Origin: an uncultured bacterium
Lineage (GTDB): Bacteria > Cyanobacteriota > Vampirovibrionia > Gastranaerophilales > Gastranaerophilaceae
Length of the DNA stretch: 34,280 nt
NCBI GenBank assembly: GCA_949293185.1
Contig: CASFCQ010000042.1
Span: 1 to 34,280, forward strand
Direction: 5' to 3'
Positions 20,755-28,704 of this stretch are shown one piece after another. The notes under the pieces are model-generated. The model was not told the DNA's origin and searched no databases. It was given only the letters and a program-made list of their open reading frames with translations. The position numbers and the translations under genes are program-made. Every line of letters starts with the position of its first letter. The stretch's first letter is position 1.

Positions 20755-20796
20755 GGGCGTAACTAGGGATATACGAATAGTTTTGCCCTTTTTTTT
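20755..20796 (+). terminator. Terminator of the flagellar operon
   Basis: GGGCGTAACTA and TAGTTTTGCCC pair with a two-base internal mismatch around a 12-base loop, followed by eight T (20789-20796). Confidence 0.8.
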
Positions 20797-20798
20797 AC

Positions 20799-20889
20799 AA
20801 GGACTCCGTTCAAAAGTTGACTAAATGTCAAGTTTTGAATGGAGGTATGCTAAGTCAGATACGTAGTATCTGCGTGCAGTATAAAAATT
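20799..20889 (+). repeat. Repeat element B, copy 2
   Basis: It is identical to copy 1 (127-215) through the first hairpin, but the second hairpin is CAGATAC-GTA-GTATCTG instead of CAAAAGC-GTA-GCTTTTG. Both arms changed together and the loop GTA is kept. It begins directly after the flagellar terminator T-run. Confidence 0.9.
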
Positions 20890-27091: not shown

Positions 27092-27934
27092 ATGCTGAAC
27101 AAATTGATTTACTTCCCCGTAAATGTACAAGCCCATACCAAAGCTGCCTCTAAAAATGTTGAACAAAAATCTCCTGATATTACTGAAAACAACAATGACC
27201 CTTTTAAAAATGTAAGTTTTCATGGACGTGATTTGGTTTCTATGCTTGAAGAAAAACAAGTGGATAAAGATTTAAAAATTATTTTTGAAAAACTTGACGG
27301 TCTCGATGGTGATGAATTCGCCCAAACTGCCTATAAAGAACTTGTAAAATATTTAAAACTGGAAGATTGTGCTCCAAAAGAACTTACTTTTCTTGAAAAG
27401 GAAGGGCGTCCGATTGCAAGTGATTATAAGTGGTACGAAAACAAAGTTATAGTTTACAGAAACTATTTTGATAAGGCATCAAAAGCTGAAAAACTGGGCT
27501 ATATTGCACATGAATTAACACATTGCAAACAAACATCAAATATTTTAAAAACGGACGATCCCAATATAATAAAACAATATGCAATTGCGATTGCCATGTC
27601 TGATTTTAATGCGGCAATGTCAACAAATCCACAGGCTGCCGCGTCATTGTTAAAAGCAAAACAAATGGGTAAAGAAAAAGAATATATTCAAACAATGATT
27701 TATAGACAAGCAGGCGCAACTTATAAAGAATTGATTACAATTTTTTCAGATGTTCTAAAACTTCCAAAACACCCTCTGAATTCCGCAAACGGTCAGAAAG
27801 CTCTGTCTGATATAAAAGCCCAATCTCTATACAACGGCGCGACAGAACAAGGCTGGAACAACTGCCCGCTTGAAAAAGAAGCAATGGATTTTGAAAACTT
27901 TATAAAAGCCGATTATTGCAAATATACAAAATAA
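27092..27934 (+). CDS. Putative zinc metallopeptidase (HExxH) of unknown role
   Basis: The protein has 280 residues from the ATG at 27092, with AGGAG six bases upstream (the frame also opens at a TTG at 27062). There is no signal peptide. The first 45 residues look disordered, with the motif NVSFHGRD at 40-47. The catalytic region is LGYIAHELTHCKQ: H140-E141-x-x-H144. A likely third zinc ligand is E261 or E263 in CPLEKEAMDFENF, the P-x-E-x-EA pattern used by several gluzincin families. The substrate is unknown; a secreted or injected effector-like role cannot be shown. It stands alone, followed by the tRNA region. Confidence 0.75.
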   Translation: MLNKLIYFPVNVQAHTKAASKNVEQKSPDITENNNDPFKNVSFHGRDLVSMLEEKQVDKDLKIIFEKLDGLDGDEFAQTAYKELVKYLKLEDCAPKELTFLEKEGRPIASDYKWYENKVIVYRNYFDKASKAEKLGYIAHELTHCKQTSNILKTDDPNIIKQYAIAIAMSDFNAAMSTNPQAAASLLKAKQMGKEKEYIQTMIYRQAGATYKELITIFSDVLKLPKHPLNSANGQKALSDIKAQSLYNGATEQGWNNCPLEKEAMDFENFIKADYCKYTK

Positions 27935-27935
27935 A

Positions 27936-27970
27936 AAGCCCCCGCACGGAGTCTTTTAAATGGTGGCAGG
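27936..27970. repeat. Duplicated tRNA-Tyr terminator and 3' end
   Basis: CGGAGTCTTTTAAATGGTGG plus the flanking CAGG repeat the sequence at 28091-28126, which contains the tRNA-Tyr terminator and its CCA/acceptor end. Here one G of the acceptor stem is missing and the copy is cut off after CAGG, where element B copy 3 begins. As a hairpin it may also serve as terminator for the metallopeptidase gene. Confidence 0.7.
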
Positions 27971-28065
27971 AAGAACTCTGTTCAAAAGGTGACTAAATGT
28001 CACGTTTTGAATAGAAGCAGGCGAAGTGAGATACCTAAAGGTATCTCCGAGCCGTATATAGATTA
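27971..28065 (+). repeat. Repeat element B, copy 3 (diverged, stems compensated)
   Basis: TGTTCAAAA/TTTTGAATA forms the outer stem. The inner stem is GTGAC/GTCAC with the loop TAAAT conserved (TTGAC/GTCAA in copies 1 and 2). The second hairpin is GAGATACC-TAAA-GGTATCTC, flanked by GGC and GCC where copies 1 and 2 have TGC and GCA. It sits between a partial tRNA-Tyr 3' end and GTTCGAATCCGCCCC (28067-28081), a T-arm-like remnant in the opposite orientation. Confidence 0.8.
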
Positions 28066-28086
28066 AGTTCGAATCCGCCCCAACAA

Positions 28087-28113
28087 AAAAAGACCCCTTA
28101 CGGAGTCTTTTAA
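28087..28113 (-). terminator. Terminator of the tRNA operon
   Basis: On the reverse strand AAAGACTCC pairs with GGGGTCTTT (one T-G wobble) around GTAA, followed by a run of T. It lies just beyond the 3' end of tRNA-Tyr. Confidence 0.8.
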
Positions 28114-28114
28114 A

Positions 28115-28200
<86 letters not shown>

Positions 28201-28209
28201 TTATTAAAT

Positions 28210-28283
28210 TTGCCTTTGACGGGATTTGAACCCGTGGCCTCTCCCTTACCAAGGGAGTGCGCTACCTCTGCGCCACAAAGGCA
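28210..28283 (-). tRNA. tRNA-Thr (GGT)
   Basis: The acceptor is TGCCTTT/AAAGGCA with discriminator A. The D-arm is GCGC-AGAGGTA-GCGC, the anticodon arm is CTCCC-TTGGTAA-GGGAG with anticodon GGT, and the T-arm is ACGGG-TTCAAAT-CCCGT. CCA is not encoded. It is directly preceded (transcript order) by three degenerate copies of its own 5' half. Confidence 0.95.
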
Positions 28284-28550
28284 TCAATTTTAGCAATGTA
28301 CCAAGGGAGTGCTGCTACCTTCCCCACTCGCCAATACTCAATTGGCTTGCGGGTCCCTGCCACAAAGGCATCAATTTTAGTAATGTACAAGGGAGTGCTG
28401 CTACCTTCCTCCATCTCGACTTGACATTTAGTCAACTCTCGACGGAGTCCTTGCCACAAAAGCATCAATTTTAGCAATGTACCAAGGAAGTGCTGCTACC
28501 TTCCCCACTCGCCAATACTCAATTGGCTTGCGAGTCCCTGCCACAAAGGC
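28284..28550 (-). repeat. Tandem array of three tRNA-Thr 5'-half units with hairpins in the D-loop
   Basis: In transcript order, units at 28550-28480, 28464-28386 and 28370-28299 each begin (T)GCCTTTGTGGC or a one-base variant. Each continues with an inserted hairpin, then GGTAGCAGCACTCCCTTG(G)TA, and is followed by the 15-base spacer CATTGCTAAAATTGA (one variant). The same spacer precedes the true tRNA-Thr. The period is about 86-94 bases. Units 1 and 3 carry GCCAAT-TGAGT-ATTGGC hairpins. The middle unit carries an element-B first hairpin (CTCCG, then TTGAC-TAAAT-GTCAA, then TGGAG). The 3' half of the tRNA (anticodon 3' stem, T-arm, acceptor 3' strand) is absent from every unit, so they cannot be functional tRNAs. 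Confidence 0.88.
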
Positions 28551-28589: not shown

Positions 28590-28663
28590 TTGCCGAAGAT
28601 AGGAATCGAACCTACAACCTACGGTTTACAAAACCGTTGCTCTACCATTGAGCCACTTCGGCA
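28590..28663 (-). tRNA. tRNA-Thr (TGT)
   Basis: The acceptor is TGCCGAA/TTCGGCA. The anticodon arm is ACGGT-TTTGTAA-ACCGT with anticodon TGT, and the T-arm contains GGTTCGATTCC. CCA is not encoded. It is the first gene of the tRNA operon, 12 bases after the -10 box. Confidence 0.95.
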
Positions 28664-28675
28664 TAACGTGTAATT

Positions 28676-28704
28676 ATCATATTAAGGACATGTCAAAGTG
28701 TCAA
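28676..28704 (-). promoter_or_regulatory. Promoter of the tRNA operon
   Basis: On the reverse strand TTGACA (28704-28699) and TATGAT (28681-28676) are separated by 17 bases. This is a consensus sigma-70-type promoter reading into tRNA-Thr(TGT), the half-tRNA array, tRNA-Thr(GGT) and tRNA-Tyr. Confidence 0.85.

Follow-up and report, generated by a model that had tools for sequence, protein, structure and literature searches.

The tRNA-linked repeats (TLRs) of Escherichia coli have been known since 1978, among them the 178-bp repeat of tyrT (Egan and Landy, 1978; Rudd, 1999; PMC8144298). TLRs reside in tRNA operons with one to five repeats per locus and several loci per genome, contain a copy of the end of the neighbouring tRNA and are co-transcribed with it; most of them are without an established function (PMC8144298). 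The rRNA-linked repeats RrA/B/F of the same organism have been reported to bind Hfq and CsrA (PMC8144298). A different kind of element is represented by the REP/REPIN palindromes and RAYT (TnpAREP) (PMC3116915; PMC6006769). Here, we analyzed a window of 34,280 nucleotides, i.e. the whole stretch of DNA under study, from a gut bacterium of the order Gastranaerophilales (Cyanobacteria), in which a tRNA operon contains an array of truncated tRNA copies interrupted by hairpins. By layout, this array is closest to the TLRs of E. coli, while by type of element it is closest to REP/REPIN.

On the minus strand, the order is promoter, tRNA-Thr(TGT), leader, three units, tRNA-Thr(GGT) and tRNA-Tyr(GTA) (Table 1). 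A sequence-only reading had described three truncated tRNA-Thr(GGT) 5' halves with hairpins in the D-loop between the two tRNA-Thr genes, which was confirmed by direct reading, and the TTGACA-17-TATGAT promoter that it had placed upstream on the same reverse-strand transcript was indeed found. In relatives, TTGACA and a TATNAT-like -10 element are conserved.

Table 1. Features of the Thr-Thr-Tyr tRNA operon, with positions in the window
Feature	Position	Strand	Basis
Promoter TTGACA-17-TATGAT of the Thr-Thr-Tyr tRNA transcript	28676..28704	-	direct reading of sequence
tRNA-Thr(TGT), intact	28590..28663	-	ARAGORN; Rfam 78.3 bits
Unit 1, tRNA-Thr(GGT) 5'-half copy, start at 28550; hairpin 28502-28538, loop TGAGT	28481..28550	-	sequence and repeat comparison
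Spacer after unit 1, ACATTGCTAAAATTGAT	28464..28480	-	sequence
Unit 2, 5'-half copy, start at 28463; class I hairpin 28407-28450 (GGACTCC..GTTGACTAAATGTCAAG..GGAGG), genome-wide repeat type	28388..28463	-	sequence, repeat search, folding
Spacer after unit 2, TACATTACTAAAATTGAT	28370..28387	-	sequence
Unit 3, 5'-half copy, start at 28369; hairpin 28321-28357	28300..28369	-	sequence and repeat comparison
Spacer ACATTGCTAAAATTGAT, leader of intact tRNA-Thr(GGT)	28283..28299	-	sequence
tRNA-Thr(GGT), intact, source of half copies	28210..28283	-	ARAGORN; Rfam 74.3 bits
tRNA-Tyr(GTA), operon end	28115..28200	-	ARAGORN
tRNA-Tyr 3'-side element, mirror image	27927..28114	-	direct repeat and inverted pairs
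Part of tRNA-Tyr 3' element: terminator			
Part of tRNA-Tyr 3' element: inverted T-arm copy	28067..28081		
Part of tRNA-Tyr 3' element: hairpin, GTGACATTTAGTCAC in reverse orientation	27982..28005		
Part of tRNA-Tyr 3' element: tRNA-Tyr 3'-end copy and terminator	27927..27966		

Each unit consists of the first 11 nt of tRNA-Thr(GGT), a hairpin of 37-44 nt in place of the D-loop and the 3' strand of the D-stem, and then runs on to the anticodon. Units 1 and 3 begin with the 5' end of tRNA-Thr(GGT), GCCTTTGTGGC, and terminate exactly with CTTGGTA, while unit 2 starts with GCTTTTGTGGC and terminates with CTTGTA, in agreement with the earlier statement that the units end at or near CTTGGTA. The spacer of about 15 bases (CATTGCTAAAATTGA) had been called constant; it is present after each unit and before the real tRNA as claimed, but carries one base change after unit 2. 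Likewise, the notion that the units differ by only one or two bases is correct for units 1 and 3, which are 97% identical across 98 nt, but not for unit 2. The hairpin of the latter, CTCCGTCGAGAGTTGACTAAATGTCAAGTCGAGATGGAG, is of a different type, is present at further sites in the genome and folds better than shuffled sequences (z -3.2). This class I hairpin is shared by a dispersed repeat (GCAAGGACTCCGTTCAAAAGTTGACTAAATGTCAAGTTTTGAATGGAGGTATGCTAAGTC..) at positions 117-161 and 20790-20833 of the window. None of the units matched an Rfam family, the only matches being the three intact tRNAs. A resemblance of GGAAGGTAGCAGC to SRP RNA, suspected by eye, and a T-box or other riboswitch were both rejected, again with no match in Rfam. 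For 44 Thr units of mixed class, RNAalifold arrived at no more than a partial consensus, owing to the unequal lengths of the hairpin classes.

Just like TLRs, the Thr array is located within a tRNA operon, with a tRNA gene of the same transcript on either side. However, TLRs are situated downstream and reproduce 18-19 bp of the tRNA 3' end, whereas the elements described here are mostly situated upstream and reproduce the 5' end or half, in which a palindrome takes the place of the D-loop. The 3'-end copy of the gene just upstream that characterizes TLRs is lacking in the Thr array, which carries 5' ends of the downstream gene; the elements on the 3' side of other tRNAs (Phe, Leu and others) do contain 3'-end copies. 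Furthermore, the organisms belong to different phyla. With REP/REPIN, the hairpins have in common that they are short palindromes dispersed in many copies, with a conserved foot and a variable stem, that they occur in nested or mosaic form and that RAYT-like genes are present in some genomes. The foot is different, being ACTCTGCCGA/GAGAGG in class II and GGACTCC/GGAGG in class I hairpins as opposed to the GTAG/GTGG tetranucleotide in REPs. Moreover, the hairpins show a strong preference for D- and T-loops combined with partial tRNA duplication, and many carriers are devoid of a Y1 transposase. The Thr array misses one defining feature of TLRs and one of REP/REPIN and is therefore a member of neither group. 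Cyanobacterial small dispersed repeats, reportedly the subject of work by Elhai and colleagues in 2008, and Rickettsia palindromic elements are mobile palindromes of very small size whose locations can include RNA genes. These elements interrupt genes and are not known to spare a second, intact version of the host tRNA next to the interrupted one, whereas an intact tRNA duplicate adjoins the interrupted copy in our case. In split tRNA genes of the Nanoarchaeum type, separate DNA segments encode the 5' half of a tRNA; the Thr units differ in having no partner 3' half, and an intact tRNA-Thr(GGT) (74.3 bits) follows directly downstream on the same transcript. Literature searches among open-licence papers yielded no description of such an array in Gastranaerophilales.

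We searched 59 related genomes with the Thr stretch and read the loci between the two tRNA-Thr genes. Within the genus, 11 of the 20 genomes contain units at this site and nine contain none, and the number of units across species varies from 0 to 3 or more. A search for the same layout in related genomes had been suggested by the sequence-only reading; a pattern scan of named genomes revealed units in about 31 independent Gastranaerophilales contigs, labeled as Candidatus Gastranaerophilales, Melainabacteria, Cyanobacteria, uncultured bacteria and, in one case, Clostridia. As the array is seen in independent assemblies, its origin as an assembly artefact is very unlikely. Chance is remote as an explanation as well, given the recurrence of the layout in these contigs and the excess of 5' self-copies over permutation described below. 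Pattern matches outside of the Gastranaerophilales (Ruegeria, Labrys, Methylopila, Chelatococcus and others) proved to contain no units on inspection. Within a locus, the spacers that precede the units and the one that precedes the tRNA are identical or almost identical, but they differ between species. In 31 of 32 units, the acceptor strand is that of the tRNA at the same locus, while the match is 51% when loci are swapped. This local match of units to tRNA reflects either concerted evolution or repeated duplication within the locus. In two contigs of the Comamonadaceae type (L053 and L075; a Comamonadaceae MAG and Caenimonas), tRNA-Thr(GGT) is closely preceded by a short duplicate of its 5' end (GCCCTTGTGGCGAGCAG), possibly constituting an unrelated 5' tRNA-linked repeat.

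The hairpins have a length of about 40-50 nt and combine their conserved feet with hypervariable, covarying stems. In the upper stem, 10 of 11 pairs covary on both sides and 94.6% of cells are paired; the covariation score amounts to 0.438 compared to 0.126 for shuffles (0/500 shuffles) and to at most 0.132 for slid controls. The class II hairpin occurs in 30 copies in the genome under study, with zero matches to a reversed control pattern, and is present in 120 of the 124 genomes of the family with up to 86 copies (congener G013). Genome G071 contains 61 hairpin copies, many of which are almost identical. Outside the family, the class II hairpin was found in 4/22 genomes of the other families of the order and in none of 84 genomes from a phylum-wide draw. 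Fifteen of the 30 own copies are less than 300 nt away from a tRNA (0.41 expected, P ~1e-20), equivalent to an approximately 37-fold concentration near tRNA genes, with 12 such genes involved; some hairpins are distant from any tRNA. Upstream of tRNA genes the hairpins are on the same strand for nine tRNAs and on the opposite strand for one, whereas downstream they are on the opposite strand for three and on the same strand for one. Phage records contained no match and a scan of viral contigs returned mostly chance matches, and a phage origin of the hairpins was rejected. A single viral contig (L270, IMGVR_UViG_3300011008_000426) contains a clear, genuine class II hairpin (GAGAAAAAGGTGCC..GGCACGTTTTTT), perhaps stemming from a Gastranaerophilales phage or prophage.

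A class II hairpin is nested within a class I repeat such that GGAG-GTAT-GCTAAG reads GGAG-(hairpin)-GCTAAG (L143 and L148 versus L151), and the same replacement of GTAT is found in a mosaic repeat of G071 that has many near-identical copies, with GAGTGGC-GTAT-TAGACAGC changed to GAGTGGC-(hairpin)-TAGACAGC. At tRNA-Ile, a unit is present in the genome under study and absent from G013, in which promoter and tRNA are directly joined (...aaggctat followed by GGGCTGC); in the carrier, the leader end plus tRNA nt 1-18 flanks the insert as a direct repeat. Elements at tRNA-Arg(CCG) and on the 3' side of tRNA-Lys are present in G013 and absent here, while the reverse is true for the 3' side of tRNA-Leu(GAG). 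The direct repeats at tRNA-Ile and at tRNA 3' ends are of variable length. A mosaic repeat ending with ACGACACTAGATT was observed on contigs C79, C72, C71, C70, C53 and C18 of the genome under study (G000; L003-L008), where it carries class I hairpins, accompanied in some copies by those of class II. It often resides at contig ends and is therefore a probable cause of assembly breaks. G071 is rich in a related mosaic (TGTCCGAGAAAG..).

The Thr array is one case of an order-wide pattern in the flanks of tRNA genes, in which the majority of the truncated tRNA copies contain a hairpin. Every tRNA gene was compared with its own flanks, and a 5' self-copy was scored when tRNA nt 2-12 matched in at least 10 of 11 nt within 400 nt upstream. 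In the genome under study, 17 of 44 tRNA genes are preceded by a copy of their own 5' end, about 20-fold above the permutation control (mean 0.75, maximum 5 in 2000), and eight are followed by a copy of their own 3' end (permutation mean 0.27). Similar values were obtained for G013 with 14/37 (0.89) for 5' and 8/37 (0.43) for 3' copies. Genome G046, which belongs to another family of the order and lacks class II hairpins, has 5' copies at 0/35 and 3' copies at 3/35 tRNA genes. The latter are located downstream of tRNA-Asp, Pro(GGG) and Pro(CGG) (L158-L225), and their number equals the permutation maximum of 3. A typical 5' unit comprises tRNA nt 1-11, a hairpin, the remaining D-arm and a leader, often with TTGAAAATTRAATA, followed by the intact tRNA. 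The remaining D-arm is in direct or, in a third class of inserts, in inverted orientation. The 3' side shows the mirror image of this order: the intact tRNA is followed by a terminator, an inverted T-arm, a hairpin on the opposite strand and a duplicate of the tRNA 3' end; at Phe and Leu(CAG), the 3' end and its trailer together form repeats of about 25 bp. The positions of truncation and hairpin recur from one tRNA to another. A tRNA-Arg(CCT) array (L043, 2010-2290 of G000:C48) contains the third insert class (GAGCGCAGCTTGCGAG..) with inverted D-arm copies, and the matching unit at tRNA-Arg(CCT) of G013 contains a canonical REP palindrome.

With regard to a mobilizing enzyme, one RAYT-like Y1 gene is encoded in the genome under study. 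It is flanked by other REPs of the GTAGG type (canonical GTAGGTTGGG). Among the genomes of the family, the median number of hairpins is 9.5 with and 4.5 without a Y1 transposase (P 0.0005, phylogeny ignored), but Y1_Tnp is absent from 84 of 124 genomes, some of which contain 38-41 hairpins. RAYT was thus rejected as the sole mover on account of its different flanking REPs and the many hairpin-rich genomes without Y1_Tnp. A casposase and a reverse transcriptase were likewise dismissed: the genome contains no solo Cas1 and no match to RVT_1. Its single Cas1 belongs to a CRISPR-Cas9 locus (L246, G000:C6) with a Cas9-like C-terminal part and a regular array of 36-nt repeats.

Taken together, the array probably consists of short mobile palindromes in partial tandem tRNA duplications (leader plus 5' half) that were homogenized with the local tRNA. 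With the D-loop of each unit replaced by what appears to be a Gastranaerophilales-specific mobile palindrome, it looks like a mark of mobile DNA and not like a new type of tRNA gene. A process at the DNA level is pointed to because many tRNAs are affected, because the mirror image occurs at 3' ends beyond the terminator and because sister species have 0 to 3 or more copies. The process would start from a hairpin family that is, as observed, dispersed, nested in repeats, concentrated at D-loops on the 5' side and mirrored at T-loops on the 3' side, and would leave the intact gene beside an interrupted partial copy, such as those found present or absent at the same tRNA among relatives. Insertion may be coupled with partial duplication or may survive only where duplication preserves an intact tRNA. 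Units would then multiply, get lost and become homogenized with the local tRNA and leader via direct-repeat recombination. They would be tolerated as transcribed parts of the tRNA leader without a dedicated function, and a function for half-tRNA transcripts is not needed. They may even constitute a small burden by competing, in predicted structures, with the 5' acceptor strand of the tRNA. Scars of repeated insertion as well as duplication had already been considered by the sequence-only reading, and both fit well with hairpins that are dispersed, nested in other repeats and variable in presence at one site among related species. Its alternative suggestion of half-tRNA RNAs that act as decoys or regulators received no support from the analysis, and none of the tests pointed to a benefit of the units. 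Arguments against the explanation by mobile palindromes and partial duplication are that the enzyme search gave no clear mover, that insertion and duplication were never observed as a single event and that the third insert class with its inverted D-arm copy is not accounted for by simple insertion. Tentatively, one may go further and envisage a class of tRNA-specialized mobile palindromes that enter D- and T-loops, create the gene-sparing duplication by the insertion itself and have spread through the order.

Selection could also account for the retention of units at one and the same tRNA-Thr throughout the family and for the invariant placement behind the D-stem. In that case, the half-tRNA units might be structured parts of a functional leader RNA that controls tRNA processing or expression, or might give rise to sRNAs or sponges, roles of a kind suggested for certain RNAs from E. 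coli tRNA operons. The position between promoter and tRNA on one transcript, the strong stem covariation and the retention of the Thr site in many contigs of the order are in line with this idea, and the acceptor copies of the units could, according to folding models, compete for the 3' acceptor strand. When the 380-nt RNA is folded as a whole, which is weak evidence, pairing of the tRNA acceptor drops with the units present, the value for the tRNA only being already as low as 0.30. RrA/B/F from E. coli are a precedent for repeats of this kind turning into sRNAs (PMC8144298). Still, we regard a functional leader RNA as unlikely, as nine of 20 congeners have no unit at tRNA-Thr, the same elements occur 3' of tRNAs past a terminator, hairpins are also found distant from any tRNA, the units are without a match to an Rfam family and palindromes mobilized in the form of single-stranded DNA would be expected to show stem covariation just as well. 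Repeated site-specific integration, either of a casposon- or CRISPR-like kind or through a tRNA-targeting integrase, would duplicate 20-30 bp of the tRNA end per insertion and stack into arrays. The direct repeat flanking the insert at tRNA-Ile, the repeats at Phe and Leu(CAG) and the existence of tandem stacking are suggestive of such a scenario, which nevertheless appears improbable: the direct repeat is not of fixed length, the inserts have neither coding capacity nor constant junction termini, class I and II hairpins are embedded in the first copy, where tRNA sequence borders them left and right, instead of separating two copies, and the sole Cas1 is part of a CRISPR-Cas9 locus. Ordinary decay, by which random tandem tRNA duplications turn into pseudogenes and acquire hairpins by accident, is in keeping with truncated copies in variable number, and slippage can build such arrays. 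It is largely refuted and in our view hardly credible given that some 40% of tRNA genes are affected in two species and the 5' side is unaffected in the other family tested, that truncation and hairpin positions recur between tRNAs, that the stems are near-perfectly complementary, and that the hairpins are enriched about 37-fold at tRNAs.

Large islands are known to target tRNA genes at their 3' ends. In the two genomes tested here, very small elements flank about 40% of the tRNA genes at either end, leave the genes undamaged and belong to an order-wide family. Nested hairpins, mirrored arrangements at 5' and 3' ends, and sites that are filled in one sister species and empty in another form a natural comparison set for the origins of TLRs. 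In addition, the elements may explain assembly breaks at tRNA loci in Gastranaerophilales genomes.
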